Of a stretch of DNA of 64,000 bases, positions 1-64,000 are shown piece after piece; the stretch's first letter is position 1; the number at the start of each line of letters is the position of its first letter. The notes under the pieces were generated by a model that was not told where the DNA came from, did no database searches, and saw nothing but the letters and a program-made list of their open reading frames with translations. Source of the stretch: Micractinium sp. NFX-FRZ. Taxonomy: Eukaryota; Chlorophyta; Trebouxiophyceae; Chlorellales; Chlorellaceae. Location: the NCBI GenBank assembly GCA_029339195.1, contig JAPTJF010000054.1, positions 62,001 through 126,000 on the forward strand. The letters run 5' to 3'. The translations under genes and the position numbers were made by a program.

Positions 1-3000
1 CGCCAGCTCAGCGTCCATGGTGCCAGCGTAGCGCGACAGCACCGCCTCCACCGCCTCCCGCAGGGGCGTGTTGTCGGGCTCTGCCACCAGCATCTTCTCA
101 TACACTGTCAGCAGCAGGGCCTGCAGAGGGAGGGCACGGCAAAAGAGATAAGCGATGTATCCTCATGAGCACAGGACAGGCGGTCGTGCGCGGTCAGATA
201 CATCTTCATGCATCGTCAGTACTGCTGCCTGGGTGTGTACAGGGGTTGTACGCCACACATGTAACTGTGGTCTCTAGGCTGGCCGCCACAAAGCGCCCCC
301 TGCAGCAGCCGAAACTGCTTCAGCAGCGGCATCTCTGCACTTCCCCTCCCGGCTCCGTGATGATGACCACAACCTTGTTTGGACCCTTCCCCCTCCCAAC
401 ACCTTGATGCCCATGACCTTGCTTGGACCCACCTTGGTCTCCGGGCTGGCCGCCACAAAGCGCTCCTGCAGCAGCTGGAACTGCTCCATCAGCGGCACCT
501 CCCCCGCCTGCGACAGCAGCGGGCCGTACTCTCCCAGCACGTAGCCCGTGCACTTGACAAACACCTCGTAGGAGGCGCCCCGGTGCAGGGCCTCCACACA
601 CTTGCGGGCCGCGTAGGCGTGCAGCTGCGGGTTGTTGGTGACCAGCTGCACCACAGAGTGCCACAGGTCGTTGATGGCCGAGTCGCCGGCCCGCTCCATC
701 AGCGTCAGCATGCTGTCCACGTACCACTCCAGGCTGGGCAGGAAGCTGCAGGGGCGGCGGCAATGTCGGCAAAGAACTGTAAAGCACACACAAAAAGCAC
801 TGCGAGGAGGCTTGAATAATACACGCAAGGCAAGGAGAGGGGCAGTGCAGGCAGCAGCAGAGTTGCTGCTCCTGCAGAAGAGAAGCACAGGCACCAGCAC
901 TGCCGCCTCAGTAGAGAGGGACCGGCACCAGCCCTGGCCATTACAAGCAAGCAAACACAGAGGCACCCACCGCTCCGCCAGCACCGTCCGGCAAGGAAAG
1001 AAAAAAGGCGCTCACCGCTCCGCCAGCACCGCTGTCTTGAGCACCAGCTCCTCCCTCATGGAGAAGTCTGCCAGTGTGAGGTAGCTCAGCAGCTCCTCCA
1101 CAATGTCGGCGCTGTTCTGGGGGGTGCACATGATGAAGAGGAGGTCGAGCGCGCGGCGGCGGATGGACACGTCGCCGTCGCGCAGGCAGGCGATGATCGT
1201 CTTCTGGTGCCGGTTGACTGCAGGGTGGCGTGAAGGGGGGAGGTGAGCGGACAGAGACTTGGGAGCGATGTGGGATAGCTGATGGTGGCGGGATACTATG
1301 TGTGGGGACAAACAGTGCCTGCACCACCACCCACACAATTCGTGACCGCCGGCACTTTCAAACACACAAGCAGAAAGCCACCCAAACATGTCCACCACGG
1401 CGGGCACCTCCGCTAGGCGCGCCACGTTCTCCAGCGCAGGCGCCTCTGTCCCACCCCCTGAAGTGCGTCGCAGCAAATCACACTTGCACCCTCTCACCCG
1501 TGTCCACCACGGCGGGCACCTCTGCCAGGCGCGCCATGTTCTCCAGCGCCAGGTACTTCAGGTTGGGCTCCCGCACGCTCAGGAACTTGGCCAGCAGCGC
1601 CACCCCCTGGCTCATCAGCTCCGGCTGCTCCAGGGCGATGGCCACCGCCACCGCCTCAAACACAATCGCGTGCACCGCGTTGTTCTTGTTCACATTCTTC
1701 ACCGACTCGGAGCCTGCACGGTGGGGAAGGGAAGGACATGTTTCCCTTACATGCATGCCAAAGGTGAGTACACGTTCATGATCTCACACAACCTAAGAGC
1801 CGGCAGTTGGGGCGGCGGTGCAGATTGAGTCTCGGTAAGGTTGGGGCACCGTGGCAGGCACCGCTGTGCAGTGCTGTTGCATGCCTTCACTGTTGCCTGC
1901 CTTCACTGGCCTGGCCACTGCCCCAGCCTGGGTACATACCACTCACCCCCCAGGATGCGGTGGATCACGTCCACCAGCATCTTGTGCACCCCCGGCTCCT
2001 CGGGCGGCGGGAAGTACTGCAGCACGCGCAGGCACTTGACTTGCAGCCAGGGGGAGGCCAGCCCGTAGTAGGTGTAGTCCTGCGGGGTGGAGGCAAGCCG
2101 CAAAGCAAGCACTTCCTTGTCTGTCCATCTGCCGCAGAACTTGTTTCAGGCTTTGGCTGCACAGGCAAGCACTTGCTGCAATCGTCTGCCCCGCTCCCTC
2201 CCGCAGCATTGGCACATACACCCTTATCAACCGCCACACACACACACGTACCTGGCTGACGTCGCGCTGCTTCAGGCGCTCTAGCACACGCACCACGCGC
2301 GGCACGCATGCCTCGTAGCCTGCACCCAGGGGCCGGCGGGGAGGCAGCAGGCCGGTGAGGGAAGCGGTGAGCGCAGGCAAGGATGAGGAGAGGCAGCCAG
2401 GCAGGCACGTGCTGGGCCAGAAGGCTGGCAGGCGACGGCCAAGCAGTGGCCAGCTGCCACATCGCTGGTGTGCAGGCTACGCGGCCACAGACTCAAACTG
2501 CACTGAACCCCAAGCACCCCCTCCACCCTCCCCTCGCTCACCCTCGTAGCTGCGCGACACCACGCCCAGCAGCAGGGTGGTCAGCCCCAGCAGCACCCCC
2601 AAGTCCCGGTCCTCCAGCATGGTTGCCAGCTTGACGCCCCACACTTCGGGCTGCATGATCTCCGCGTCCGGGGGCGCCTTGCGGATGAGGCGCAGCAGGC
2701 ACAGCGCGGCCTTCTTGCGCACCACCGGCCGCGTGGCGCCGTTGGCAAGCACGTTCATCACGTCGGCAGTGAGCAGCTGGGAGAACTCGGAGCCGCCCAC
2801 TGCAGCAGGCGGCAGGGACATGGATCGGGGCGAGGAGGAGATGAAAGCTAGCCCAAGGTCAGCGTGTTCATCATGCCGGCAGCCAGCAGCCGGGACAGGT
2901 TTTAAGCCGCCCACGTCAGCAGAGGCCAAGCAAAGTAGAAGATAGCCAAGTGGCTCAGCAGGCCGGTTGGTGACCACAGCAGAAGGCCTGGTTCCCCTCG

Positions 3001-4384
3001 CCTCCCTGCCTCTCCCCACATACCCACACCACGCACCGTTTGCGATGAAGTCCAGCGCCAGGCACTGGAAGGCCTCGTTGCGCGAGATGAGGTCGTTGCG
3101 CACGCTGTTGATGACGAGGCGTAGGAACTCGTCCTTCTGCAGCAGGCAACGAGGCATGTTCCGATGAGTGAAGCAGGAGCCGAGGCAAATTGGGTCGTGG
3201 CACGCTGTACAAATAGTATCGATCACAAAACGCGGGGATGCGACATTCTGTATGCTGCTTGCCCGCCCGCCCGTCCCGCCAGCTGTCCTCACCTCGTTCA
3301 GGAAGACGGCGCAGGCCACGTAGCCCACCTGCTTCTCAGCATACCTGCAGAGGCGCCCAAAGGGGCGGACAGCGCACAAGGGCACGCGCAGCAGACTCTT
3401 CAGCAGGCAGCTGCCCTCAGGAAGGCAGAAGCCAACACATGCACAGTGCAGTAGCCGCTGCGCCATCCACAGTTACACACGTGCGTCCCATCCCATTTGC
3501 CCCTCCTTTCAATCCACCGCAAGCGCACCCCTTCCCCCCTCTCGCCCCCATCCCCCGCACCCCGACGCCGCAATGAGGTCGCTGGCGTTCTTCACCCCAA
3601 AGTCCACGTCATAGCCCAGCAGCCGTGTGTACAGCAGCTTCCACATGTACTTGCGCTTGTCATAGGCTGCAGGGGGCGGTGGTGGTGGCGGCGGGGCAGC
3701 AAATCGTTGATGCGGGTGCAGGCGCAGATGTGGAAGCGGGGTGGCACTGGGTTCAGTGTGCACCCTGCCAGCGCAGATCATCCAGGGAAAGCGAGCGGCG
3801 CACTCACACATGCTGCAGCCGCCAGTCAGCGTGCCCCTCCCCTCTGGGCTGGCCACCGCTGCGACCGGCACCACGCCAGCGTCCACTACAAAGACTGGCC
3901 TGACTGCTGCCTGCCTGGTAGCAGCCATCCACCCACCCGCCCGTCAACGCCCTGTCTGGCCCACGACAGAACCGCAAGGCGCCGCACGTACAACAACAGC
4001 AGCCTGCTGCCAGCACCCACCTGTCATCGCCTTGTCCGAGGTGTACTTCTTCCGGATCTTGCCCAGCTCCTTGTCCACCCGCTCCTTCTCCTGCTCCTTG
4101 GTGCTGCAGTTGCGGATGTCCTGGATGTAGGCCTGTGCCACACACACACGCGTGGGGAGAGGGCAGGCACACCACAGGTTGGCAGGCAAAACCACGGGTT
4201 GGCAGGCAGGCACGGGGGCGAGGCGGGCGGGCAGCTGCTCTTTTCTGGCTGCGGAGAGTTGCCTGTGCCACTGCAACGCTTGCTGCGCCCCCCAGCTGCG
4301 GGGCTGGAGGGGAGGGTGCAGGGGCCAGCCGTCTGTGCGCCCACCGCTCACCCGCAGGCCGCGGATGTTGGCAATTTTCGCCAT
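1..4384 (-). CDS. AP2A: AP-2 adaptor complex alpha subunit (3' end beyond window)
   Basis: Large subunit of the clathrin adaptor for endocytosis at the plasma membrane; it binds cargo and phosphoinositides. Twelve exons read right to left: 4352-4384, 4021-4132, 3561-3666, 3293-3344, 3037-3136, 2542-2799, 2252-2319, 1947-2079, 1498-1713, 1016-1217, 433-745 and 1-120 (cut by the window). Phases close and give 571 residues of the alpha-solenoid trunk. Visible family blocks are IQDIRNC at the N-terminus, LLGYDVDFG, EKQVGY, RKKAALCLLRL, DYTYYG followed by SPWLQVKCLRVLQYFPP, KNVNKNNA and SIRRRALDLL, close to plant AP-2 alpha. The hinge and ear domains must lie to the left of position 1. Introns 9, 10 and 11 hold partial copies of the preceding exon end. 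The start at 4384 is the first Met of a 33-nt exon ending in a good GT donor. Confidence 0.93.
268..340 (-). repeat. Decayed copy of AP2A exon 11 end
   Basis: Sequence around 269-335 repeats the 3' end of the exon whose edge is at 433 (from 436), about 167 bp downstream in the transcript, with scattered substitutions. The shared core includes GGCTGGCCGCCACAAAGCGC. It lies in the intron and is not needed for the protein. A shorter echo of the donor flank (CTTGTTTGGACCC against CTTGCTTGGACCC) sits between the two. Confidence 0.8.
966..994 (-). repeat. Short copy of AP2A exon 10 end
   Basis: CGCTCCGCCAGCACCG at 971 repeats the exon end at 1016, 45 bp away, and keeps an adjoining GT donor-like dinucleotide on the minus strand. 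The functional donor is the first copy in transcript order. Confidence 0.7.
1389..1440 (-). repeat. Copy of AP2A exon 9 end
   Basis: About 50 bp repeat the exon end beginning at 1498 (shared TGTCCACCACGGCGGGCACC), 112 bp further along the transcript and roughly 90 percent identical by eye. Its translation still reads LAEVPAVVD, but the functional exon is the first copy. Confidence 0.88.
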
Positions 4385-17228: not shown

Positions 17229-17262
<34 letters not shown>

Positions 17263-37231: not shown

Positions 37232-39484
37232 TCATGCAAGCAGGCGCTGGGCCTCCGCGTTCACCGAGTCTAGGAAAGAAACGAAGGTGGGCCACTCCAG
37301 CGGCTCCTGCTGCTGCGCCTGCTGTGCCTGCTGCGCCGCCTCCTCATCCTCCCCCTCGCTGCTGCTGCTGCGGCTGTCGCCGGCTTGAAACTCGGCCTCA
37401 GCCTCGGCTGCTGTGGAGGGGTCTTCTATCAGCCAATCTGCAAACGCCTCTGTGCCCTCCCCGCCCTCTCTCAAGAGGAGCAGGTCGGGGGTGCACCGCC
37501 GGGCGGCACGCATGCCCGCCAACGTGCGGCGCAGCAGGCTGGCCGCGGGCGGCGGGAAGTGCACTGCCCCCCGCCCATCCATGTAGAACACGATGATTTC
37601 GGAGTATGCATCCAGCACCCAGATGGGCTGCTGGCTCACCGCCAGCGCCGCCGCTGACAGCGAGTGCTGCAGCACCGCCACCTGATCTGGGCTGGCCCAA
37701 CTGCTGAGCTGCGGGCACACCGCCACCGCCAGCTCATCGGGCGGCAGCGCGCGCAGCAGGGAGCGCAGCGCGGCGGCGGCGTCGGGGTGCCGCCACGCCG
37801 CGGGCTGCGCCAGGGGGCCGGCAGCGCCGGCGGCTGCCACCGCTCCTGGCGGTTGGAGCAGGGGGCCGTAGAGCAGGGAGAAGAGGACGTGCGGCAGGTG
37901 GTGGAGGGACTGCAGCTCTGAGAGCGAGGCGTCCACCTGGCGCGCCGCCTGCAGTGGCAGGGGGAAGGGGGACAGGGGGCAGGACGGGGTCCGCTTGTGA
38001 AGCAGGTACGGGCGGGGGGTGAAGACGTTTACAATGCATGTGGGCAGTGGCTGTGCACTACATGGCCCCAGCGCTGAGACAGGGAGCACCCACAGCACGC
38101 AGGCCAGGGGTGCCAGTGCCCCCTGGGGCTGCTGCCCTTCCCCAGCGTCCCCACCGGCAATGCGCCACCACACCCCCGCCTGCCCGCCCACCCGCCCGCC
38201 CACCTGGCCCTTGCCGCCGCCGCCGCCGCACTGCTCTGCTGCTGCCGCCGTGATGAGTGCCAGCCAGTCAAACAGCATCTGCCGTGCCTCCCGCACTCCC
38301 TGCTCTGCCGCTGTGGCCAGCGACTTATGCACTACCAGGCAGGCAATGGCCTCGCAGTCGCAGCTTCCAAACAGCTCCGCCGCTGAGCTGGCGACCGGGA
38401 GCGCTGAAGTGATGATACGCATCCGCCGCTGCAGCACAAACCTGCAAGTGGGATGGCGGATGGTGGGGCCGGGGAGGGGAATTCAGAAGAGCCGGGATTA
38501 GCACGCAGCCGTGTGCAGAGGAAGGCGAGTAGCGGCCAAATCAATGACGCGTGCAGCAGGCACGCTTGTTTGCCCACCCGGACGGCAGTTGATGCACACC
38601 CTGCACTGGACTCCCGCCCTATACCAGCCCCATGCCCCAGCCCGCCCACCTGCTGCCGTCACTGCCGCCGCTGTCGGGCGCTGCGGACACGGGCAGCAGC
38701 ACGCTGAATTGCAGCACCAGCTGTACCGCGGGGGCAGTGCAGGCCAGGCGCTGCGTGCTGCGGTCGAGGTCAAAGGCAAAGGCGTCGTCTGAGGCGCAGC
38801 CCACCAGCCGGAACAGATCTGGGTGCTCCCTGCAGCATGGAAAGCAGCACAGCAGGGGCAGCATGCCAGGCTGTCAGTAATGACAGAGGGCGGATGCCGC
38901 ACTCTCCCATTGCCCTGGCACGCCCTGACACTGCGCTGCCCGCATGGTACCAAGACCTGGGTGTCACTCTTAACATTTAATGGCAACGGCGACCCCAGCT
39001 GTGCACCCTGCAGTAGCTAATACCACCAGGCACTTGCCTGTCCGGCATTCAGCACCCTGGCATTGGCCTGTCTGCCACCCTTCCCCCCGGCACTTTCCTG
39101 TCTGCCACCAGCCGGCCGTGTGCCCCGCGCAGCTCGAGCTCGGGGGAGCAGCGCAGGCGCAGCAGGCAGGCCAGCGCGCGCGGCTGCGTCACGAGCTTGT
39201 ACACGTCCTGCAGCACAGCAAGGCACAGCGTGGCACAGCACAGCATGGCACAGCACGTGAATTGTGAGGCAGGAATTGTGAGGCAGGCGGCGGAAATATG
39301 AGGTGCGCAGAAAGGGGCGCCGTGGCTGTGGCTGGCTCGAGACCAGGTTAGGGCGGCTCCCAACATGCTTCATCCTTCCCGCATGCACCATCGTGCTACA
39401 GCCCTCCAGGCCGCCAAGGCGGGTAGAATGGAAGAAGCAGCAGCAGTAGGAGCGGCAGCAGCGGCGGCAGCAGCAGCTGAAGCA

Positions 39485-39517
<33 letters not shown>

Positions 39518-42500
39518 GCAGCAGCAACAAAGAAAGCAGCTGAAGCGGCAGCAGCAACAGAGACAGCAGCTGAAGCAGCAGCAGGAGCAACAGCGGCAGC
39601 AGCAACAGAGACAGCAGCTGAAGCAGCAGCAGGAGCAACAGCAGCAGCAGCAACAGAGACAGGAGCTGAAGCAGCAGCAGGAGCAACAGCAGCAGCAGCA
39701 ACAGAGACAGGAGCCAAGCCAGCAGCAGGAGCAGCAGCAGGAGCAGGAGCAGCAGCGCCCTGCCGCACCTGCGTCATGGGTGCCGCCTCCAGGGAGCGGT
39801 ACAGCAGCACGCTGCCCCCGCTGGTGCTGGCGAGAGGCTCTATGAAGTCCAGGCCTGCAGCATGGTACAAAGGTGCATGGTTGCAGGGAGCGGACCCATG
39901 GAAGGGCAAGGAGGTGCATGTGGAGGTGCATGTGGAGGTGCATGTGGAGGTGCATGAAAGGGCAAGGAGGTGCGTGGAGAACAGAGAAGCGGGGCGGGCG
40001 CCGTCAGCCAGGCATGCATGCGGCCAAGGCGTGCGCTGCCTGCGGCCTGCATGCCTCTGCCAGCTGGCCTCACTTCCTGGCCTGAACACCTCCCCGTGCA
40101 ATTCTGTGCATGGGTGAAGCCCCAGCGCAGCCTGCCCGCCCTGCTACCCCACTGCTTGCCAACCCCACTCCCGGCCCTGGCCCCTCGCCAGCGCACCCAT
40201 CCACTGGGGGCAGGCAGCAAACACGTCAACGGTGACTCCCAGCGCCGCAGCTGCTGAGCCCGCCTCTGCATAAAAGTCGCGTGCCGCCAGGTTCACTTCC
40301 AGCCGCTCTGCTGAGATGCCAGGTGGCGCAGCGTGGGACAGGTCGCCCGCGGCGGCCAGCGCGGCTGCTGCTGCTGCGTCTGCTGTGCTGCGCTGGACGG
40401 TGGTCGTGCGTGCGACGGCGTCGCTCCAAGCCGACAGCTCTGGGTACTGCGCAGGTGGAAAGCAGGGTGAGGCGCCAGTGGTGTGCAAGTGTTGGTAGTG
40501 TTGGGTGGCCATTGCACACGTTAATGGGTGTCTGCTGGCATGCAGGGCTTTATGACGGGCCTGGCCCAGCACACGGCAGCAAGGCTGTGCAGGTGGCGCA
40601 GACGGGCACGTGCTGAGCGTGGCGGGGTGCACCGTCTTGTGGCAGCGCCCCAGGCAGCGGTAGCGGGCTTGGGATGCTGCTTGGCCCTCGCACAAAACAC
40701 GGTTAGCTGTGCACTTGCACACACACCTGAGGGTCAAGGACGAGCGTGGCCAGCTCCCGCGCCGCCTGCTCCGCCGCTTGCTGCTGCGCCTGCTGGGCCG
40801 CCGCCACGTCGGCGGGCGAGGGGCGCCGCGCCACCACCGCCCCCGCGCCGCAGTTGGGCGGTCCCGCCAGGAAGAGCAGCAGGCGCATGCCGGGGAAGCC
40901 GTGCGCAGCAGGCAGGCCGCCGTTGTAGTCCCCCGACTGCTCGCTCTCACCAGAGGGCTGCCGCTGCAAGCCCTCAGCCGCCGCCGCCGGCGCGCCGACA
41001 GCCAGCCAGCGCAGCACAGCGCGCAGCGTGTCACCCAGCGCTCGCTCCTGCCCGCCTCCGACCTGCGGCTCCGGCTCCAGCTTCTCCACAGATTCCAGGA
41101 TGGCTTCCTTGCAGCTTCCCACTGACGCCAGCATGCCCCCCAGTGGCGCCGCCTCTTGGAGAGACACCTGCGCTGCCTCGGCTCCTGCCAGCGGTATGTG
41201 CACCACGCCGTCGCCATTGCCGCCCGCCCGGTGCAGGCTGATCTGCGCAGCATGGCAGGGTGGGGGAGGAGAAGGGGCAGGGGAGGCTGGGGGGGTGAGT
41301 ATGTGTGGTGGCATGCACAGCAAGCAATTTCCTGGTGCAGCCTGGTACAGCCTGGCTTGCACGGCATGGCAGGGTGGGGAGCGGGAAGAGAAACTGCGCA
41401 CAGATGAAGCAGCAAGCTGAGGTGCGAGCAGAGGAGGCGGCAGCCCTGTCTGGATGTTGGATGTTGGGCGGTTGGGCGCCGCTGGCCGCACAACACACAA
41501 GCAGTGACCGCCCCAGCCACCCTCTCTGGCTCACACAGCTGGCAGGCCACCCACCACAAAACAGCGCCCCCTCCCCCTTTCCCCCTGCGCATTCCAGCCC
41601 CATCCCCGCCTCGCCTGGGAGCCAAAGCTGACGAGGCCGAAGCGCGCGGCAGGCGGCAGCGCCTCCACCGCCGCCGCCAGCGCGCTCTTCACAAGCTCCA
41701 GCCCCTCCTCGCTGCAGCACACCACAAACAATGTGAATTAACAATGGGCCCTGGGCGGTACAGGGACAGGGGCGGTGGTGCCACCAATCCGCCACGGCCG
41801 TGCCTGCGCAGCTCAGTCACATCTTTCCAATAAGTTCAAGGATTAGGTCCGAAAAACGCAACCCGCCCTTTACCTGCAGGACAGATCCACGAGTGCCAGC
41901 ACAGCAGGCTGCGCCTCCAGGGCCAGCACCTCCTCAACCCCCTCATCCGGGTCGGCAGCCACGAGCGGGCAGAGGACGTCGACCGACTGCCCGCCCAGCT
42001 CGGGCAGCGCGGCACGGCGCTCAGCAGCGGCGCCATAGTACCTGCGGTGGGGGACGGCGCCAATAGGCCAGCAAGAGGTGGGGCGAGGTGGAAGAATGTG
42101 GGGCACGCATCGCCAGGTTGTGGGCCGGCCACGAGCAAGCCGGCCAGACAGTTGGCCTCCCAACGAGACCTGGCCTAGCTGCCCGGCACAGGCCGCCTGC
42201 CTCGGACACTCACCGCCTCAGGCTGGTGGCAGTTGAGAAGTCGTTGGCGCAGCCGCACAGGCTGCAGCCCCAACCGTGGGCATCCACGTCACACAGGGCG
42301 TTGATGTAGGCGTGGCAGCGGGCGCAGCGGGCGAGGTCGGCGGCCCAGCAGGCGGGCGGCGCGGGAGGCTCGGCCTCGGGCTGCGCCAGCGGTTGCACCA
42401 CCAGCCCCAGCGGAAGCCCGCATGCGTCTTGAAGATCCACTGCAACAGACAGGCAGCTTGTTAAAAGGGGATACAACGAACGGAAACAGCTGGGTGACAG

Positions 42501-42712
42501 TGCGAGTCCACAGGCAGCAGGCACTTTGGCGGCCAGCGGGCGGTGGCGGCAGCAACCCCCTGCCCGCTGTGCGCGGCGCCCGTTGTGCGCACGCACGCAG
42601 AAACCCCATTCTGTACCGCTGCCCCGATAAGGGTATCGGCCCCGCATCGCGCGCCGAGCGACAACTGCTCACCCGTCGCCGGGCAGGCCGCTGTAAAGTT
42701 GATCAGCGTCAT
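37232..42712 (-). CDS. SEC23-family COPII coat protein (diverged)
   Basis: Eleven exons (42673-42712, 42214-42439, 41874-42041, 41615-41711, 40727-41242, 40197-40446, 39769-39854, 39109-39207, 38650-38825, 38204-38441, 37232-37948) give about 870 residues. The zinc finger is C52, C55, C72, C75 (CARC then CSLC, with WGCSLCGCANDF). The trunk follows (VLALVDLS, FGLVSFGSQ, MRLLLFLAGPPNCGAG), then a helical domain and a gelsolin-like end (PIWVLDAYSEIIVFYMDGRG). The family activates the SAR1 GTPase and builds the inner COPII coat at ER exit. It is shorter in conserved blocks than canonical SEC23 and resembles the diverged SEC23-like proteins of plants. Exon 4 ends at a GC donor. The exon 8/9 join is uncertain (acceptor placed at 38826). 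The intron after 39769 carries a 48-bp satellite. Confidence 0.86.
39430..39760. repeat. 48-bp satellite plus CAG-rich tract in intron
   Basis: Four head-to-tail units of 48 bp start near 39555, 39603, 39651 and 39699 at CAACAGAGAC, inside a longer AGCAGC-rich tract. On the plus strand the unit is a multiple of three and gives an Ala/Glu/Thr repeat with period 16, so a long open frame appears by chance. It lies in a SEC23-family intron. Confidence 0.88.
39910..39955. repeat. 12-bp tandem repeat
   Basis: Four copies of GAGGTGCATGTG within the intron right of 39854. Confidence 0.85.
41334..41385 (-). repeat. Upstream copy of SEC23-family exon 5 start
   Basis: The block ending GGCATGGCAGGGTGGGGAG repeats the acceptor region and exon start at 41230-41268. 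On the minus strand both read an acceptor followed by a CTGCAC-containing start, and the copy lies upstream of the functional exon. Confidence 0.7.
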
Positions 42713-54030: not shown

Positions 54031-57000
54031 ATGAGATTTGTTGCCGCCATGGTGAGACTGTGCAGCCTGGGAAGCGATCATCAATTTGAACCCGAGCGGA
54101 TTGCCCGGCGGTCGCCCTGCAGCCTTCTGAGCGTGCCCGATCGCCACTGCAGGATCCCCACGAGAATGAGGCCAGGAGCGATGTTGAGGACGAGGTGGAG
54201 GAGCCCAGCCGCCTCGAGGGCTCGGATGCTGAGGGGGAGGACCTGCTGGACAACATGGAGGCGTGCGTGGGTTGCGGGAGGTGCAGGGGGCTGCTCAGCG
54301 CCGCGGGCAGAGCGCTGCAGCCTGGGCAAGAGCAGAAGAGTGGCGGGCCGCCCGCCGCTGCCGTCTGGCCTGGCGAGAAGGCGTACCCACGCCTCCTCCG
54401 CCACATCGACATGCTTGCGGCTTGGCACCGGACTGCGCCAGTTTCCCACTCATGACCAGAATAGGAGCGGCCGCAGAATCAGCGTTGCAGAGTTGACACA
54501 GCTGGCGTCCCCACCACGGCACCAGGCCAATGCGCCGCGTGCGCTTCACACCCGTGCTCCGCGCCCCCCTCCCTCTGCCTCCATCGCCTCCCTGCAGGGA
54601 CTACCGCCCCATGGAGCACCTGGATCGCTACGAAGGTGACGGCATTGATGACGGATACGTTGAGGACATCACCGAGGAGGAGCGCTTTGCTGCCAGGCTG
54701 GCGGCGGAGCGCGAGCTGGCGGAGCGGGACGTGGTGGAGGGGCGCGTGACGGGGCGCCGCCGCGGGCTGCCCGCCGCACTGGAGGGTGCGTGCCAAGTGG
54801 AGGGGCCCGGGCCGGGGGTCACCATAGCAGGCAGCAGGGCGGGAAGGCACTGCTGCTTCATGGGGAGCCGAGAAGGCGAGGGGGCTGCTGCCTTGCATGT
54901 GCTGGCAGTTGTGCTTGCTCCACGCCTCTCTGCAGGCGCAGCGCACACAGCCTTGCTCCTGGTTCCCATATCCTACTTCTTACCTAGTCGTCTATTCCTT
55001 TCTTCTCCTGCTGCAGAGGAGCTGGACGAGGATGAGCGGCGGCCTCGCCGGCGGCGGCGGCTGGAGGATGCGCAGGCGGGGATGGATGACGAGGACCTGG
55101 TGGGTGGGGGGCAGGGGTGCAGCACAAGAGGAGAGGGCTGCATCTTGTGGGAAGCACAAGCACACATGTGGTCAGGGAGGGCCGGGCTACTGGATTGGAA
55201 GCAGGGGGGCCATCTGGCAGGTGTGGGAGTGAGGAGGGTGGGGTGGCATGGCAAGGAAGTTCCTCGCTCACAGGGTCACCGCCCGCCCCCGGCTCCACCC
55301 CACTGCTGGTTGAGGAGGAAGGCAACCCGGGCGAGGGCCGCCCCCCGACACTAGCACGGACATTCACTGTTGTTCAAAACACTGAACTGTGCAGGGTGAG
55401 GTGGAGATTGATCTGGAGGAGGCACGCGGCCCCATCCGGGAGTGGATTGCGCAGGAGCCGGTGCGGCGCGAGGTCAAGCGCCGCTTCGCCAAGCTGCTGC
55501 GTGGGTTCACCGACGAGAACGGGGATGCGGTGTACCGCCAGCGCGTGCGCGACATGGTCCGCAGTGAGTGGGCTAAAAGAGGGGTTGTCTGGAGCGTGTG
55601 TGTGGGTATTGTGACGAGAGAAGGAGAAAGGGAGCGGGCTGGGAGGGGGATGCTGTGTGGAGCTTGGATGACTCGCTGCTGGTCTCACTGCTGCTCCCCA
55701 TGTTGCCAACATTCTTTCCCTTGCCCCACGCCTCCCTTTCGTGCACTCAAACTCTGACACTGCAGCCAGCAGCGCCACGCTGGAGGTCAGCCACCCGGGC
55801 ATTGCCAAACACCATGCCCGCTTCCTCTTCCTCTCCTTTCCCTTACATCTCCCTTTCGTGCCCCCCACACTTCTGGCAACCCTCTGCAGCCAACAGCGCC
55901 GCGCTTGAAGTCAACCACCCGGACATTGCCAACACCATGCCCTGTTGTCTCCCCTTCCTTCCCTTCCCTCACATCTCCCTTCTCCCCTTTGGTACCATGT
56001 GCAGCCAACAGCGCCACCCTGGAGGTCAACCACCCGGGCATTGCCAACACGATGCCCACTTGTTCCCCCTTCCGTCCCTTCCCTCACATCTCCCTTCTCC
56101 CCTCCACCATGTGCAGCCAACAGCGCCACCCTGGAGGTCAACTACCTCGACATTGCCAACACCATGCCCGTTTGGTTGCCCTTTTACCTTCCTTTGCATC
56201 ATCCTCCACCATGTGCAGCCAACAGCGCCACGCTCGAGGTCAACTACCTGGACATTGCCAACACCATGCCGGTGGTGGCCATCTGGCTGGCAGACCACCC
56301 ACGTGAGATGCTGCCCATCCTGGGGGAGACCGCCAAGTGAGTGCCAGCGGTGTGAGCAGTGAGGTGGCGGGGATGGAAGGGTAGCTGGGCTGGCCCTGCG
56401 CAGCGGGCTGATGCTGCCCATCCCTGGGGGAGAGCGCCAAGTGAGTGCTCAAACACTGAGCGGCGTGGGTACTCAACTGTGGTACTACTGGACGGTGCAG
56501 CTGACCGGTGTGGCGGGGCTGAGGGGCAGCTGGGCTGGTCTTGAGCAGTGGCTGATGCTGCCCATCCTGGGGGGCCGGTGGACCCGAGGGGCCCAGGGGG
56601 TGAAGTGTGGGCATTGGCATGGTGCCGAGTGCAATAGCTTACCAATTGTGTGTCAATTCACAACAAGCAAGAGGATGAGCAAGAGTAGCGAGCTGGCGGT
56701 GGAAGGGGATAAGAATGCATCTCGTTGAAATTGCAGCACCAACAACACATAGTGACCACCTCCTCTGAATCTCTTGTGCTGCCGCAGGGAGGTGGGGCTG
56801 GAGGAGTTTGGCAATATAGGCAGACAATGTAGACAGCACCACTGGATACTGACCTTTTGGCCATGCCTGTGTTGCTGCCTGCAGGGAGGTGGCCCTGGAG
56901 GAGTTTGAGGACTTCAGCAACGTGCAGGACAGCGTGTTTGTGCGCATCGCAAACATCCCGCTCCAGGAGTCCATCCGCGACCTGCGGTGAGGCGATGCCG

Positions 57001-60000
57001 CCGCCTGCTGCGGCTGCTGGGTGGCTATGCTGGGCTGGAGCTGCGGCTGCGGCTGCTGCTGCTGCTGCTGCTGCTGGAGCTGCTGCTGCTGCTGCTGCTG
57101 CTGCTGGAGCTGGAGCTGGGCGGCTGTGCTGGGCTGGGCTGGGCCGAGCCAAATGTTTTATGCTGAGATGCGCTGTGTGTCCTCTCTGGGTTGTGCTGCG
57201 CTGCGTCGTGCTGGGCGCAGTGTACACGGTGCGCCCACCGTGCTGCCCTCCACGTCCCACCCCAACCTGCTTCAATGCAAACACTTCCGCAATCAACCCC
57301 ACTCTGCGTCGCCACCTCCCTCTGCCGCACACCTTGCCTAAACACATTTGGCTCCTTTCCTCTGAAAACCATCACCCCTCATGCAGCCACCCTTCCACCT
57401 GCACCAGCTGGTGCACGTGGGCGGCCCGGTGACCCGCCGACGCCCACCCCACCCCACCACTTTCAAACCCAGACTCACCACCCCATCCCACCCCTCATGC
57501 TGCAGCCACTTCCACCTGAACCAGCTGGTGCGCGTGGACGGCGTGGTGACCCGCCGCACGGGCGTCTACCCCCAGCTGCAGCGCACCTTTTACGACTGCC
57601 TCAAGTGCGCGGCGGTGCTGGGCCCCTACTTCCAGACGGGGGACAAGGAGATCAAGCTGGGCTCCTGCCCCTCCTGCGAGTCCAAGGGGCCCTTCTCGGT
57701 GGGTGGGCGGCCCTGAGGGGGCGGGCGGGCGGGCATGGGGGAGTGGGCCCAAAGTGGCGTGTGGGGCCAGGAGGAAGGGGGCAGATGGCCCTTCCAAGCG
57801 GAGGACTGCCTGCTCTCTAGAGTCACTCTTTGGCCTGCTGCTCCCCCACTGTTGCATTCCCCTCTCCTCCCTGAACGTGAAGCAGACAGCAACCGCTTCA
57901 AACTCGCGCGCCCACGTTGTTGCTGTCTCTTGCTTGACTGTGGCCAAATAATGTGTTGGCGATTGCGCAGGTGGACATGAGGCACGCGGTGCACCGCACC
58001 TACAGTGTGCTTGGTTCATTTTGGTTGGTTCCTTGCATTGACCCACACATGCAGGTGAACGTGAAGGAGACGGTGTACCGCACCCTATCGTCACGTTGGC
58101 TCATGTCTATATCTTTCTTGTACTTGACCACACGTGCAGGTGAACGTGAAGGAGACGGTGTACCGCAACTACCAGAAGATCACGCTGCAGGAGAGCCCCG
58201 GGTCGGTGCCCGCCGGCCGCCTGCCTCGCTCCAAGGAGGTCATCCTGCTGCACGACCTGGTCGACTATGTGCGCCCCGGCGAGGAGATCATCGTTACCGG
58301 TGAGCTTTGTCTGTCGGGGCGTTTGAGCAGTGTGGTAACCGTTGATTGAGTGTCCTGCTGCACGACCTGGTCGGCTATGTGCGGAGGAGATCATCGGTCA
58401 CCGGTGAGCTGCGCCGAGGAGTGCTTGGGGATGTTTCGTAGAAAGGGAAGGGGTGGGCTGTGTGAAGGTGCGTTTAGTGATTACATTTAGAGCACTGGGT
58501 AAGCACTGGTCTGGCGTGGTGCCACTTGGTCCCCGCCACCTGACCCGTCCTGTGCTGCCCCCGCCCTGGGGCCCCCTTGTGCAGGCATCTACCAGCACAG
58601 CTTTGAGGCCGGCCTGAACGCGCGCCACGGCTTCCCCGTCTACTCGGTCAACATCGAGGCCAACCACGTGCAGGTCAGATGTCGTGCTTAGATGTAGGCA
58701 GAGCGGAGGGGTTGTGCCAGTGTGGGTGTGTGGGGGCAGTGGGCTCGCCAAGAAGGAGGGGGGGAGACAGGGCTGTGCACTGTGGTTAAAAGAAGCAAGG
58801 GCTGCTTGTTTACTGAGTCAACAGCGAGGCCGACTTCGTGCAGGTGAGTGAATCGAAGCAGCAGGGGTGAAGGGGCAGTGAGTGGTCTGTGGGTTGGGAG
58901 GAGGGGGCCGTTCAGGCAAACCAAGTGCGCATGCAGCGGGGGTTGTACGTGCGTCTGTCTGGGCAGGGTGTGCACTCAGCACCCCCCTCACGTGCCCAAA
59001 CCGCTGCCTGCCTCCCCCTCCTTTGCTGCCCCGCAGAAGAAGGGCGACCAATACTCTGCTGCCCGCTTGACGGATGACGACAAGGCGGAGATCCGGGCGC
59101 TGGGCCGCGACCCACGCATCGGTAGGCAGACCGCACCGCTCTTCTTTGCAGCTCTTTCATGCGGCCCCCTGCGCTGCCACCTGTCATGCCGCCTGTTGTG
59201 TGCTGCCTCTGGCCTTGGAAAGGCGGAGATCCGGGCACTGCGCCGCGAGCACGCAGCGGTGTGGCACATTTGCTTGATCGTGCCCAGCCCTGCTCCGCCA
59301 TCTGCTCCGGATGTTGCGTTCTGATCTGATCTGCCTGCTCTGCCGTTCTTTGCTACAACGACCCGCCTCACTGCCCGCACCCCAACCCCGCACACCTCAT
59401 CTTCGTTCTGCCCCTCCTCTCCCCAATCTCAAGTCACCAACATGCGAGCGCACCGATTGCTCCACTGCCCCCTCATCTCGCTGACGCAAACGCACCCCTT
59501 CCTCTGCCCCTCCCACCCCATGCTGCTGTACTGCTCTGCAGGCGAGCGCATCGTCAAGTCCATTGCCCCCTCCATCTACGGCCACCAGAACATCAAGATG
59601 GGCATCGCTCTGGCCATGTTTGGGGGGCAGGAGAAGCACCCCTCGGCCACCCACCGCCTGCGTGGAGACATCAACATGCTGCTGCTGGGCGACCCCGGTA
59701 CCGCCAAGTCGCAGGTGAGCATGAGCAAAGGGCACATTTCCCAGGCATCAAACTGAGTAGGCCCACGACCGGGGCGAGGGTCGATGAGTGGGTGGCGGTG
59801 ATGGAAGGTGGCGTCAGCATGCTGCTGCTGGGTGACAAAGCATGCCTCACCACACCTGCCAAGCCCCCACTTCTTTCCTTGCTTGCTTGCACTTCCTTGC
59901 ACATATGTGACAAGTTGGCTCAATGCGCATCCGGCAAACTCCTACAACTCAAACCCTTTCAAATTTCTCTCCTATTCTTGCTCCGCAGTTCCTCAAATAC

Positions 60001-63000
60001 ATTGAGAAGGTGGCCCACCGCGCGGTGTACGCCACCTGGCAAGGGCGCCTTTTGCACAACTGCTGACCCGCACTCCCTCTCTCCCGTGTGCTTCCTGTGC
60101 CCCTCCACCAATGCAGTTCCTCAAGTACATCGAGAAGGTGGCCCACCGTGCGGTCTACACCACCGGCAAGGGCGCGTCTGCCGTGGGCCTGACGGCGGCG
60201 GTGCACAAGGACGCAATCACGGGGGAGTGGACGCTGGAGGGAGGCGCGCTGGTGCTGGCTGACCGGGTGGGTGCCTGTGGGACAGGGCTGACGCAGCTGC
60301 GCCAGCTGCCTGCCAATGGTGGTGGGTGGTGTATCATTCTGCCGGGGAGTGGATGCTGGAAGGAGGCGCGCTGGTGATGGCAGACCGGGTGGGTGCCTGC
60401 GGGGTTGTGGCAGCTTACTCGCTGGCTGGCTGGGTGGATGGGCAAGCTTGGGGGGATGAGGCCAGGCGCTGAGACAGGCGCTTGCATGGTTGGGTTGTGT
60501 CAGACCCCCAAGCCGCCGCCGCCGCTGGCCACCCGCCATACTGCCCTCGGCTGTTCCAGCCGCCATGTGCGCTGCATCGTGACCGGCCTGTGCTGTGCCT
60601 CAACTACGTCTCAACTGCGCTCCCTTCCTGCCCCCTCACCCCACTTTGCCTTGCAGGGCGTGTGCCTGATTGACGAGTTTGACAAGATGAACGACCAGGA
60701 CCGAGTGTCCATCCACGAGGTGGGTGGGTGGCTCACATTAGGGTGGATAGAGTCGACTTCTTGGGCAGGTGATGCACATGTTGTTCGCTGCTGTTGGCTC
60801 ACATGGCAAGCAGGCCAGTACGGCGGTGTGTCCTTACAGGATGCAGGTTAGATTTAAATGGATTGAGTCGACTTTTTGGGCAGGTGGTGCACATGTTGTT
60901 TGCTGCTTTTGGCTCACATGGCAAGCGGGCCACGTCGGCGTTGTGTCCATACACGGGGCGGGTGGGGAGGTGCCCCCGGACTGCGTGCTCAGGGGCAGAG
61001 GCCACAGCAGCAATCAATCCCCATCTCCAGGACGTGCCCCTCTTGCTTCCTTTCAATGTGTACCATGATGGTGTCTCTCTGGTGCAGGCCATGGAGCAGC
61101 AGTCCATCTCCATCTCCAAGGCGGGCATCGTGACGTCGCTGCAGGCGCGCTGCTCAGTCATCGCGGCCGCCAACCCCATTGGCGGGCGCTACGACTCCTC
61201 CAAGACCTTCTCGGAGAACGTGGAGCTGACCGACCCCATCCTGTCGCGGTGAGGAAGGGTGGGGGGGGTGAAGGGTGTTTAGCCTGCAAGGTGGTGCAAT
61301 GGGTGGGGCGATCCAGTGGCTTGAACAGACTTGCAATGCCGTTTGTTTGTTCTTTGCAGTTTCGACGTGCTGTGCGTGATCAAGGACACGGTTGACCCGG
61401 TGAACGACGAGAAGCTGGCCGAGTTTGTGGTGGGCAGCCACGCGCGCAGCCACCCGGAGGACGTGGCGGCGGCGCACGCGGCGGAGGCGGAGGGCGGCGC
61501 AGAGTGAGTTGACAACTGCCCTCCCTGATGCTGCTTGCATGCATGCTGCTGCGGCCACCCTGCCGGCATGCCTGCTGCACTAGGCCCGTGCGGCTGTGCT
61601 GCATGCGCCTGCTGTTGCACACTCTGCAAGCACAGCCGAGGGCACACCCCACCTAGCCCTTAGTTCCTGCCCTCCCACCTGCCCGCCCTCTCCCCCCGAC
61701 TTGCAGGGCCGGCAGCAGCGGCAACGCGGGCAGTTTCGACATGCTGAGCCAGCAGATGCTCTGCTCATCAAAACACCCAGCTCACAATCTTGCCCACCAC
61801 CCCCCTCCTTCCGACCCCCGTATTGTGCAGGGCCGGCAGCAGCGACAAGGCGGGCGACCCCGAGATGCTCAGCCAGCAGATGCTGCGCAAGTACATCACT
61901 TATGCCAAGCAGACCTGCCGGCCCAAGCTGCAGGCGGCGGACTACGACAAGGTGGCGCAGGTGAGCGCCATGCCACGTCAGCAGTCACATGATGCCACGT
62001 CAGCGCCGGGGGCGCCCTTGTCTGCACGTGTGTCAGCGTGCAGGCTAAAGGCTGTGGCAGGGTGGCGCCGGTGGACTGTTTTGTCACGCCAGCATGCCAT
62101 GTCGGCATGCCCACCCCTGCGAACCGCGTGCATGGCGGCTGTCCCGCCCACCACCAACCAAGTCACAGCAACCAGCGAGCAACCCCAATCCACCCCACTG
62201 ACCCACCCACCTTTGCGTCCCACCTTTTCCTCGCCCCCCACCCCTCTTCCCCCCCGCCTGCAGGTGTATGCAGAGCTGCGCCGCGAGAGCAGCGTGACCC
62301 ACGGCATGCCCATTGCTGTGCGCCACCTGGAGTCGATGATCCGCATGAGCGAGGCGCGGGCGGCCATGCACCTGCGCGAGTACGTCAGCGACGACGACAT
62401 TGACTGCGCCATCAGGTGGGTAGCAGTAGTGACCATGGCTCTGGAGTACTTGCATGATAAGTATTGGCGTCCTTTTGGCTCGTTTCTCAGGCGGCCACGG
62501 ACCATGCATGTTTGACAAGGTGGCGCGATCAGGTGTGCAGTGATCACGGGGGATTCTCGGGGAGTGCCCGCAGGAAAAATGCTGTGTGCCGTGCGGCCAC
62601 ACCACACACTCTACCTCCACGCCAGCAGCAGCTGCTCCCGCCCAAAACCCAACACCTTGTGCTCACCCCCTCCCCCGCCCCGCAGGATCATGCTGGAGAG
62701 CTTTGTGGCCACCCAGAAGCTGAGCGTGCAGAAGGCGCTGCGCAAGAAGTTCCGGCGCTACCTGTCGGCCAAGGCCGACTTCAACGGCCTGGTGAGCCTG
62801 GTTGGGGGGTCTGTTAAGGAGGGATTTGTGTTATTGTAGGTGTTAGGTGCCCTGGCGGACGGGTGAGCCAGCTTAGTGCGCACTGATCATGTAACAGGAG
62901 AGTGCTGTTGTTGGTGGGAGGGAGGCAGGTGGCAGGAGCCGCCGCGGCAGACTTCAAGGGGCTTCAACAAGCTGCACTGTTGGGAGCTCCCTCTCCCAGG

Positions 63001-63631
63001 GGAGCCTTCATGGGATACGCCCGCTCGTCACCCTCCCAACTATGCCCCTTCCCCACTCCGCTGCAGGTGCTGCTGAAGCTGGGAGATTGCCTGCTGGTCC
63101 TCACCTGCCGCTGTCTCCACTTGCGTTCTTTCCTCCCACCCACTCATCCCCCTCCCCAACTGTACCCCTTCCTCGTATCCTCCATTGCAGGTGCTGCTGA
63201 AGCTGCAGGAGTGCCTGCGGGACGCGCGGCGGGTGGAGTCCATCACGGGCCAGGTGGAGGACCGGGACAACTACGCCGTGCCCGTGCGGTGAGTGGCTGG
63301 GAGCACAGCGCAGCACAGCATGCACAGCGTGCACAGCACGAGGCAGCGGAGCGTAGCAGGGCGCGCGTAGCAGGCTGCACAGCAGCGCAGGGTAGTGAAA
63401 CTAGCAATACACACTGTGCTGCTCCCGACCTGCGGCTGCTCATTGGCTGCTCACCTCCCCGGCTTCCTCCCGTCACGCGCCCTTCCCTTTACGATGTGCA
63501 GGCAGCTGGAGGAGCGGTGCCGTGACATGGACATTTACGACCTCAAGCCCTTCTTTGAGAGCAAGACGTTCCAGGAGGCAGGCTTCCGGCTGGGCGAGGG
63601 CGCGCAGCAGGTGCTGCTGGCACGCGCGTGA
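54031..63631 (+). CDS. MCM2: MCM2 subunit of the replicative helicase
   Basis: Subunit of the MCM2-7 helicase that is loaded at origins and unwinds DNA. Twenty-one exons, 874 residues: 54031-54051, 54153-54262, 54598-54785, 55017-55099, 55395-55563, 56219-56336, 56885-56986, 57506-57698, 58140-58299, 58585-58673, 59037-59121, 59542-59714, 60117-60266, 60657-60719, 61088-61248, 61360-61503, 61831-61960, 62264-62415, 62686-62791, 63191-63288, 63502-63631. The acidic N-terminus carries [18 protein letters not shown]. The zinc finger is C295, C298, C318, C321. Walker A is GDPGTAKSQ (489-497), Walker B LIDEFD (551-556), and the arginine finger SRFD (621-624). [13 protein letters not shown] and [10 protein letters not shown] identify MCM2 rather than another paralogue. 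The start at 54031 or the in-frame Met at 54049 (better context) are both possible. Most introns carry partial exon copies. Confidence 0.97.
55766..56218 (+). repeat. Four tandem pre-copies of MCM2 exon 6 start
   Basis: Copies start at 55766, 55890, 56005 and 56117; the functional exon starts at 56219 (periods 124, 115, 112, 102). Each has a pyrimidine stretch, a TGCAG acceptor and about 54 nt of exon start (CCAACAGCGCCACCCTGGAG onward to CATGCC). Copies nearer the real exon are more alike: the fourth keeps CAACTACCTCGACATTGCC. None is followed by a GT donor at the exon-like edge, so they act at most as decoy acceptors. Confidence 0.96.
56409..56580 (+). repeat. Two post-copies of MCM2 exon 6 end
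   Basis: GATGCTGCCCATCCCTGGGG (56409 onward) and GATGCTGCCCATCCTGGGGG (56552 onward) repeat the exon end at 56308-56336. The first also keeps CGCCAAGTGAGTG, that is, the donor itself. This intron therefore contains a duplicated, intact-looking 5' splice site. Confidence 0.92.
56788..56820 (+). repeat. Pre-copy of MCM2 exon 7 start
   Basis: GCAG then GGAGGTGGGGCTGGAGGAGT repeats the functional start at 56885 (GGAGGTGGCCCTGGAGGAGT), 97 bp upstream. Confidence 0.9.
57045..57118. repeat. CTG/GGAGCTG tract in MCM2 intron
   Basis: Runs of eight or so CTG units separated by GGAGCTG blocks, directly behind exon 7. It is the longest CTG tract in the window. Confidence 0.88.
57387..57447 (+). repeat. 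Pre-copy of MCM2 exon 8 start
   Basis: About 60 nt repeat the start of the exon at 57506 (CACCAGCTGGTGCACGTGG against AACCAGCTGGTGCGCGTGG), with the acceptor and CCGGTGACCCGCCG. Period 119. Confidence 0.92.
57971..58083 (+). repeat. Two pre-copies of MCM2 exon 9 start
   Basis: Copies at 57971 (GTGGACATGAGGCACGCGGT) and 58055 (GTGAACGTGAAGGAGACGGT) precede the functional exon at 58140; periods 84 and 85. The second copy matches the real exon for 28 nt without a mismatch by eye, the first is decayed. Confidence 0.93.
58352..58408 (+). repeat. Post-copy of MCM2 exon 9 end and donor
   Basis: TCCTGCTGCACGACCTGGTC and then GCGGAGGAGATCATCGGTCA, CCGGTGAGCTG repeat the exon end at 58243-58305 with a small deletion, 110 bp downstream. 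Confidence 0.92.
58811..58850 (+). repeat. Post-copy of MCM2 exon 10 end
   Basis: TACTGAGTCAACAGCGAGGC then CGACTTCGTGCAGGTGAG repeats the exon end at 58641-58677, with an in-frame TGA created by substitution. Confidence 0.9.
59219..59262 (+). repeat. Post-copy of MCM2 exon 11 end
   Basis: AAGGCGGAGATCCGGGCACT then GCGCCGCGAGCACGCA repeats the exon at 59082-59118, 138 bp downstream. Confidence 0.88.
59811..59841 (+). repeat. Post-copy of MCM2 Walker A region
   Basis: GTCAGCATGCTGCTGCTGGG then TGACAAAGC repeats exon 12 at about 59669-59697, just before the Walker A codons. Confidence 0.75.
59989..60052 (+). repeat. Pre-copy of MCM2 exon 13 start
   Basis: About 60 nt from TTCCTCAAATACATTGAGAA to GGCAAGGGCGCC repeat the functional start at 60117, mostly third-position differences, 128 bp upstream, with the acceptor retained. 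One inserted base pair shifts the frame near TGGCAAG. Confidence 0.94.
60342..60399 (+). repeat. Post-copy of MCM2 exon 13 end and donor
   Basis: GGGGAGTGGATGCTGGAAGG then AGGCGCGCTGGTGATGGCAG and ACCGGGTGGGTGCCTG repeat the exon end and donor at 60222-60277. It remains open and could serve as an alternative donor. Confidence 0.94.
60735..60970 (+). repeat. Tandem intron unit with post-copies of MCM2 exon 14 end
   Basis: A unit of about 118 bp is repeated (GTCGACTTCTTGGGCAGGTG near 60752 and GTCGACTTTTTGGGCAGGTG near 60868). Each unit ends in a version of the exon end and donor: GTGTCCTTACAGGATGCAGG near 60829 and GTGTCCATACACGGGGCGGG near 60943, against GTGTCCATCCACGAGGTGGG at 60705. Confidence 0.9.
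61707..61762 (+). repeat. Pre-copy of MCM2 exon 17 start
   Basis: GGCCGGCAGCAGCGGCAACG onward to AGCCAGCAGATGCTC repeats the functional start at 61831, 124 bp upstream. It is open in frame, but no GT donor follows. Confidence 0.93.
63067..63097 (+). repeat. Pre-copy of MCM2 exon 20 start
   Basis: GTGCTGCTGAAGCTGGGAGA then TTGCCTGC repeats the functional start at 63191 (GTGCTGCTGAAGCTGCAGGA), 124 bp upstream. Confidence 0.88.
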
Positions 63632-64000
63632 TGAGCTGGCAGGCAGCACGCCAGCTGGCGGCGGCAGCTCTCGGGTTGCCACCTGGCCAATCTGCGTGCG
63701 ACTTGCGATACGGTGGCCGGCGGCCAGGGGGGGGCCAGGCCCGCAGGGCTTGCAAAAGGCTGGGCCAGAGGTGGCTGCAACACGCCACGCTGCCCCGCCT
63801 TCTTTTCTGCTGCTGCTAGCTGCCAGAACTTGGCGCCAAAATACTTCCCTGACTTTGCACCAACCACCACCACCACAGACAGCCTATCCCCGACATCCCC
63901 TGCTTCTTTCTATTTGCTGCTACAAATTGTGTTACGTTGCGCGCTGAGATGCGCCGCCCCTTTGACGGTTGGGGAAGGCGGCCACGCCACTTGCCCGGCC
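63632..64000. other. 3' flank of MCM2
   Basis: 369 bp after the stop. No clear TGTAA on the plus strand and no further exon seen before the window ends. Confidence 0.5.

Follow-up and report, generated by a model that had tools for sequence, protein, structure and literature searches.

Genes of the window and the copies in their introns

The window analysed here is a stretch of 64,000 nt from the green alga Micractinium sp. NFX-FRZ (contig JAPTJF010000054.1, positions 62,001 to 126,000; G000:C54:62001-126000), in a genome of 66.07 Mb in 838 contigs with 65% GC. It carries, among other genes, AP2A, LPP, DGK, a SEC23/SEC24-family gene and MCM2. Introns of several of these genes hold partial copies of the edge of a neighbouring exon: copies of an exon start lie in the intron upstream of that exon and copies of an exon end in the intron downstream of it, the placement that we call the silent side. 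We found that these directional exon-edge copies are real, stand well above chance and are also seen beyond the window, which confirms in part the preliminary description of this DNA. A search of the open-licence literature found no description of exon-edge copies as a systematic feature of algal introns, a result that does not prove their absence from it.

The preliminary description had counted about 35 copies in five genes and presented them as a window-wide rule. At a Smith-Waterman score of at least 28, the silent side of the window gave 31 matches, distributed among MCM2 (19), DGK (5, one of them merely 14 nt), AP2A (4) and the LPP-side gene (3). Two of the last three are doubtful, one being located beside a 38-nt exon called by our hidden Markov model (HMM) and the other scoring 29. 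Two copies of an LPP exon end have to be added, as they were missed in this list because the HMM called part of the first one an exon. The first count is corrected accordingly. Four of the five genes stand, while the SEC23 family does not: no edge copy at score at least 28 was found in that gene, nor in the window genes g1, g2, g3, g6 and g7, and the rule is not window-wide. LPP, which carries a PAP2 domain, and DGK lie head to tail on the same strand (27650-36774), and the HMM joined both into one model. The region of the SEC23/SEC24-family gene holds a CAG-rich tandem array (39431-39757, 48-bp unit x 6.6).

Gene models were obtained in two ways. A splice-aware HMM was self-trained on a 264-kb sample, comprising the window and 100 kb from each of two other contigs (0.4% of the genome), and converged on 519 introns and 51 genes, with a median intron of 242 nt, a median exon of 106 nt, and the consensus (C/A)AG/GTGAG for donors and TGCAG/G for acceptors (the last slash marks the border). 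Compared with solved MCM2 sequences, several of the seven extra exon segments that the HMM added in MCM2 appear as insertions. Because these seven segments were miscalled, the HMM models of AP2A, DGK and MCM2 were replaced by homology-guided spliced alignments to proteins of relatives; all other genes remain ab initio. The edited MCM2 query is 90% identical to Micractinium tetrahymenae (P0001) and 80% to Chlorella vulgaris. Against the relatives' proteins, the models without the copies show 0 inserted codons in MCM2, 26 in DGK (not traced) and 3 in AP2A. In spliced alignments to P0001, P0121 and P0241, the exon border is the site proximal to the exon body.

Table 1. Exon-edge copies, tandem duplications and related genes of the window (window coordinates; scores are Smith-Waterman scores, offsets in bp).
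Feature	Position	Strand	Remarks
MCM2 gene	54049..63631	+	copy-richest; 19 matches at least 28, 14 edge hits at least 30 over 20 introns; P0001 spliced alignment
MCM2 array, ~115-bp units	55714-56273	+	four copies and functional unit
Copy 4 (farthest), start of MCM2 exon 56219-56336	55766..55818	+	score 68, offset 453
Copy 3, start of same exon	55890..55941	+	score 79
Copy 2, start of same exon	56005..56056	+	score 74
Copy 1, start of same exon	56117..56171	+	score 90; TGCAG acceptor intact
Copy, end of MCM2 exon 56219-56336	56410..56440	+	identical GTGAGTGC donor; score 49, offset 103
Second copy, end of same exon	56554..56573	+	score 40, offset 247
Copy, start of MCM2 exon 56885-56986	56788..56810	+	score 36
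Copy, start of MCM2 exon 57506-57698	57392..57439	+	score 71, offset 117
Two copies, start of MCM2 exon 58140-58299	57967..58082	+	~84-bp spacing; nearer (58055) is an AG/GT site
Copy, end of MCM2 exon 58140-58299	58353..58403	+	identical GTGAGCT donor; score 66, offset 110
Copy, end of MCM2 exon 58585-58673	58808..58843	+	score 37, offset 170
Copy, end of MCM2 exon 59037-59121	59220..59258	+	score 52, offset 138
Copy near end of MCM2 exon 59542-59714	59814..59836	+	score 36, offset 143
Copy, start of MCM2 exon 60117-60266 (FLKYIEK)	59985..60048	+	score 87, offset 128; partly called exon by HMM
Copy, end of MCM2 exon 60117-60266	60344..60403	+	identical GTGGGTG donor; score 70, offset 122
Intron-internal tandem duplication in MCM2	60744..60953	+	115-bp unit, 88% identical
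Copy, start of MCM2 exon 61088-61248	61006..61037	+	score 34
Copy, start of MCM2 exon 61831-61960	61707..61760	+	score 63, offset 124; silent acceptor 10.3 vs functional 7.3
Copy, start of MCM2 exon 63191-63288	63067..63097	+	score 37, offset 124; silent acceptor 11.3 vs 9.3
Far copy, start of DGK exon 33937-34068	33723..33755	+	score 41, offset 214
Full tandem duplication across acceptor of DGK exon 33937-34068	33765..33993	+	111-bp units; TGCTGG repeated at junction
Near copy, start of DGK exon 33937-34068	33826-33882	+	inside full tandem duplication 33765..33993
Copy, end of DGK exon 33937-34068	34099..34150	+	score 36
Copy, end of DGK exon 35874-35996	36138..36200	+	identical GTGGGTG donor; score 69, offset 178, 94%
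Full tandem duplication across acceptor of LPP exon 29608-29759	29389..29651	+	125-128-bp units; direct repeat CGCCTGCGGC at junction
Two copies, end of LPP exon 29608-29759	29818..29976	+	29818-29877, 29935-29976
Copy, end of AP2A exon 1498-1713	1389..1437	-	score 83, offset 112, 94%
Copy, end of AP2A exon 433-745	268..326	-	score 75, offset 166
Short copy, end of AP2A exon 1016-1217	971..986	-	score 32, offset 45
Copy near start of AP2A exon 2542-2799	2866..2895	-	score 35, offset 113
SEC23/SEC24-family gene	37232..42712	-	no exon-edge copy at score at least 28

Direction, spacing and controls

In the 264-kb sample, the first and last 60 nt of each exon were compared with the flanking introns, taking the best match per edge at a Smith-Waterman score of at least 30 and summing over three gene groups. 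Not counted were exon edges of less than 20 nt, the first exon of DGK, exons of zero length, the part of the LPP-side gene beyond 31800 and single-exon genes outside the window. On the silent side, 31 of 486 exon starts matched the upstream intron and 29 of 484 exon ends the downstream one; on the other side there were 3/442 starts against the downstream intron and 4/442 ends against the upstream intron. The copies had been said to lie always on the silent side, and this was nearly right, with seven exceptions among 67 matches. Only one exception is left in a stricter test in which the two non-overlapping halves of each exon were kept apart: 30/464 starts and 28/454 ends on the silent side (58/918) against 0/420 and 1/420 on the other (1/840; Fisher 6e-16). 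The directional bias and the excess over chance proposed earlier are therefore both upheld, unrelated introns giving 1.0 hit in all in this stricter test. With overlapping halves, rates corrected for opportunity at the observed offsets were 0.070 and 0.066 on the silent side against 0.014 and 0.019. Seven exon edges bear at least two copies in the halves-apart test, the MCM2 array included.

The same polarity recurs outside the sample, in about 60 kb of further loci. These merge into 13 loci, including one elsewhere on contig C1, that played no part in HMM training; they gave 9/73 starts and 8/70 ends on the silent side (17/143) and 0/61 and 0/61 on the other (0/122). They are a non-random set: six of the 13 were selected as MCM loci and account for 15 of the 17 hits, and locus L031 accounts for the remaining two.

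Local repeats were likewise directional. The 264 kb contain 121 direct and 8 inverted hits, which at offsets of 40-400 and at least 40 bits form 67 direct clusters and one inverted, with a median offset of 110 bp (quartiles 90 and 128); the further loci gave 39 direct and 0 inverted hits, a few of the 39 being counted twice in overlapping loci. These local direct repeats bear out the tandem origin suggested for the copies, and the preferred spacing is real as well: silent-side offsets have a median of 112.5 and 10-90 percentiles of 84-166. The exon-derived part of a copy has a median length of 39 nt. Homology reaches exactly to the border in 34/60 copies and extends from exon into intron in 46/60, and full duplicated units include existing intron sequence. 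Hits with an offset below 60 or without an exon part were removed from some of the analyses that follow (56, 53 and 56 of the 60 kept).

It is exceedingly improbable that the pattern is an artefact of chance similarity, low complexity or ab initio gene models. The HMM did take several copies for exons (in MCM2 and LPP), and the models beyond AP2A, DGK and MCM2 are unverified. However, unrelated introns gave about 1 or 2.2 hits (the latter at score at least 30 with overlapping halves), reverse-complemented introns gave 4 against 67, and these two controls reject chance. The signal is moreover strongest in the homology-guided genes and recurs in loci outside the training set.

Splice sites at the copied borders

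The placement of the copies follows from the geometry of a border-spanning unit. After tandem duplication of an acceptor unit, made up of an intron tail and an exon head, it is the downstream head that continues into the exon body, and the spare one necessarily lies upstream; a donor unit, made of exon tail and intron head, is the mirror image. A partial copy that arises by tandem duplication across a border must then be on the intron side, which argues that the polarity reflects tandem duplication and not selection. In this sense, the preliminary description placed the copies correctly, but their polarity, being the sole geometry possible, is in itself no sign of selection.

That the copies are silent in the mRNA is supported by other observations. 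No whole-exon copy was found among the 60, whereas 9.0 would be expected if the observed units were placed uniformly on the gene models. Uniform placement also predicts 25 exon-internal duplications per 56 border hits, and mainly exon-exon clusters numbered three (C1 45686, C1 69302 and window 29712), the one in the window being due to a copy that the HMM called as exon. Copy offsets are multiples of three in 13/56, with no excess. In 44/60 copies (AG 25/31, GT 19/29) the position exactly homologous to the functional site still has the splice dinucleotide, and use of the kept site would disrupt the frame in 37 of the 44, by a stop in 24 and a frameshift in 13. A looser test, in which the highest-scoring site up to 6 nt from the copied border is taken and high scores are thereby favoured, found 52/56 kept, 46 of them disruptive and 19 equal to or stronger than the functional site. 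In the exact-position set, 21/44 kept sites equal or exceed the functional one in score, the mean log-odds being 4.87 for silent sites, 6.64 for functional sites and -3.85/-2.07 for the intronic background.

These numbers also bear on the idea that the copies are functional, as decoy or recursive (AG/GT) sites or as regulated alternative exons under selection. Retention of AG and GT and scores far above the intronic background would fit it, as would the correlation of copy rate with third-position GC (GC3) and the P0001 alignment of MCM2, in which zero-length AG/GT exons fall at the copied sites 58055, 58844 and 63067, which are candidate recursive-splice points. Nevertheless, dinucleotide retention is about what per-base border identity predicts (about 0.84 squared), so that copied sites appear to be neither eliminated nor preferentially retained. 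Mismatches (0.105/0.093/0.141 at codon positions 1/2/3) hardly spare the first two positions, unlike coding constraint, and the silent exon parts of the MCM2 array are 0.85-0.90 identical to each other. Given the codon-position mismatches and the frame disruption, a function as alternative exons was rejected, and we regard functional copies in general as improbable. Recursive splicing at AG/GT copies may be another route to silence.

If, of two nearly identical sites, the splicing machinery uses only that joined to the exon body, splice sites here would be chosen across the exon (exon definition), a reading drawn from sequence that fits the continuity of the encoded proteins. For comparison, the cassette-exon fraction given for Chlamydomonas reinhardtii in PMC2397502 is 22%, described there as nearer to multicellular plants than to other unicellular organisms.

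Probable tandem duplication, possible block copying and possible intron growth

We consider short tandem duplication across exon borders, the silent copy then becoming intron, to be the probable and best explanation. Duplications mostly of 80-130 bp would probably arise when strands slip, or are wrongly ligated, between short direct repeats (ABA to ABABA). A unit that spans a border would contain the splice site together with some 20-60 nt from the exon edge and, in most cases, at least 45 nt of intron, and would leave two near-identical splice sites about 110 bp apart. Under exon definition, the spliceosome would stay with the site joined to the exon body; the mRNA would be unchanged, the extra unit would become intron and the copy would be neutral. 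Units comprising a whole exon or lying inside one would alter the mRNA and be removed by selection. The intron-derived part would decay on both sides, whereas the exon-derived part is compared with an exon fixed by selection and would be recognisable for longer.

Similar events are known in other systems. Insertions of the rad27/FEN1 type, from ABA to ABABA, are reported in PMC5677150 with a unique part of 1-91 bp and repeats of 1-21 bp, and the same source cites duplications of 5-108 bp with repeats of 3-12 bp. They are tandem insertions mediated by direct repeats; here, the putative junction repeats are about 5-10 nt and units 75-138 bp. They are described there as a signature of yeast mutants lacking Rad27/FEN1 (PMC5677150), whereas here the pattern would be that of a wild-type genome with somewhat longer units. 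Matches to the XPG_I family (XPG/FEN1-type) occur on four contigs, and given these matches we claim no loss of FEN1. Break-end fill-in is a possible mutational source too: fill-in by CST/Pol alpha-primase gave small tandem duplications at induced breaks in mammalian cells (PMC8355091), which according to that account are direct, local and tens of bp long, as here, and polymerase-theta-made duplications show junction microhomology more often than CST-dependent ones (PMC8355091). Our most similar duplication, which is intronic (L036 2188-2346), has 75-bp units at 97.6% identity and an exact 9-nt junction repeat.

In the sample, an overlap of 7-12 nt is seen in four of seven two-unit alignments, the P values of the single cases being 0.0008, 0.023, 0.0012 and 0.16; this counts in favour of junction repeats, yet as a test it is weak, the cases having been picked for their overlap. 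Several observations weigh against the simplest form of tandem duplication. The intron flank is at background in 14/20 copies whose exon part is at least 88% identical, and intron-part homology reaches p<0.05 in 17/53 testable copies, in some of them slightly shifted. Eleven intron-only clusters were found (two of them also contain an exon-edge copy) against 57 expected by uniform placement, a comparison in which detection thresholds differ. The intron part is shorter than 45 nt in 7/59 against 23.4 expected; acceptor signals could explain this rarity, donor signals do not. The mean strength of silent sites is below that of functional ones (p 0.011), and an alignment of MCM2 to C. vulgaris P0003 counts as exon 19 nt at the copy at 61707 and another 6 nt at 58055, both in stretches of poor conservation. 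Carrier introns are unevenly distributed among genes (p 0.0003), and their rate rises with GC3 (Spearman 0.58, 47 genes) and falls with mean exon length (-0.33), none of which neutral slippage alone predicts; gene expression, exons that evolve more slowly or gene models of better quality may account for it. In the MCM2 array, intron parts of silent units are 0.62-0.87 identical to each other over their full length and exon parts 0.85-0.90; intron-type sequence thus decays faster, largely by indels, hardly enough for the misfit. Simple duplication with neutral decay does not explain the unrecognisable intron halves. The copies had been described as decaying intermediates, and this was half right, as the exon part is often 88-100% identical and the intron part unrecognisable (14/20), a difference larger than the twofold one of neutral decay. 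An attempt to date the copies by paralogue comparison failed, the paralogues of window gene g1 being only 68-84% identical.

These misfits lend some weight to a view that we nonetheless find unlikely, namely that the exon edge (20-60 nt of exon with its splice site) behaves as a separate block, copied by templated insertion (template switching) or kept similar by gene conversion of the copy by the exon, with an unrelated spacer; tandem duplication may then start the process and block-wise copying dominate it. Besides the 14/20 well-preserved blocks with unrecognisable flanks, 10 of the 11 copies in the best condition lose their homology no more than 25 nt from the border, although 3/11 show a degree of intron similarity (p<0.05), and an exon end at locus L044 has two downstream copies (127 and 227 bp) with GTGAGT intact and spacers that look different. 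The near copy in DGK is a reverse mosaic, 0.93 identical to the functional unit in the intron part and 0.75 in the exon part, as conversion or chimeric exchange would give; such exchange between units would explain both this and the mosaics with preserved exon parts. On the other hand, full-length border-spanning duplications exist (29389-29651, 33765-33993, 55714-56273), and the 34/60 homologies that reach the border exactly are expected of a unit that spans it. Polymerase theta makes, by templated insertion, both direct and inverted local copies; in contrast to these two orientations, one of 68 clusters here is inverted (67 vs 1), and the further loci show 39 direct hits against 0.

A transposon-like introner family with target-site duplications appears highly improbable. 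Direct repeats do flank part of the intron, as it would require. However, the two copy-bearing queries tested, the MCM2 array and the single copy 60344-60403, each match solely their own locus in 66 Mb, in a search that skips very common words; in these two cases the origin is local. At about 20-60 nt, the repeat blocks greatly exceed the 3-9 bp target-site duplications given for introners in PMC9860276. On these own-locus matches (two loci queried) and the excessive block length, an introner family was rejected. Introners, which as described in PMC9860276 occur mostly in fast-evolving lineages such as green algae and raise intron content, are dispersed similar introns, whereas the copies here are local and derive from the adjacent exon.

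Tandem duplication as a source of introns is described by the model in PMC3443670, which likewise draws intron sequence from exon sequence. In that classic form, an exonic segment containing AGGT yields a new intron; here an existing border is spanned, an existing intron lengthens and the mRNA appears to stay the same. A further case is the potato RdRp gene, in which one duplication crosses an intron-exon boundary and brings along branch site, polypyrimidine tract, 3' splice site and exon start (PMC4974935). There, a new intron arose in the duplicated region, while here dozens of silent copies occur per 264 kb. It is partly supported that duplication lengthens existing introns, and we do not claim the birth of any new intron. 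At least one copy is present in 58/509 introns, and these carriers have a median of 376.5 nt against 235 nt (p 1e-13), or 268 nt after removing the duplicated length. The earlier proposal that introns grow by absorbing exon edges agrees with these longer carriers, but longer introns also offer more room for copies, so that their length is consistent with growth and no proof of it. In 3/60 canonical hits the copied border falls on or within the exon that the HMM places just before; either an error of the HMM or a copy that was retained could account for this.

Some borders resemble minisatellites, with arrays of 3-5 units (MCM2 55714-56273); unlike minisatellites, most borders here have a single degenerate copy anchored to the exon edge, and one unit is functionally constrained. 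Other repeats were noted in the sampled DNA. A sequence of about 100 bp in a predicted coding exon (L018:4129-4241; C2:164129-164241) has more than 50 genome matches, often in tandem within a locus. In the same locus, 94 bp (L018:4661-4754) are identical to C12:13843-13936 and 86 bp (L018:7505-7590) are 99% identical to the end of C742. Locus L006 (C1:145686-146140) holds a coding minisatellite with 96- and 187-bp offsets that extends into the next intron.

About one intron in nine thus has a readable copy of a neighbouring exon edge, and naive scaling from the 264 kb gives some 14,500 genome-wide. Intron lengthening is usually inferred from distant genomes; here apparent intermediates are found in one genome and can be measured against the exon. 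The paired sites amount to dozens of in vivo site competitions that bear on exon versus intron definition in algae, and the copies mislead gene finders. As a tentative and still somewhat doubtful proposal, border duplication could be a standing engine of intron growth, in which conversion keeps exon blocks alike, flanks turn over and exon definition ignores duplicated sites of nearly full strength. If this is true, the genome of Micractinium sp. NFX-FRZ would be a natural saturation experiment in which the spliceosome chooses between near-identical sites about 110 bp apart, and would also offer a view of border duplications able to seed recursive splice sites or new introns.

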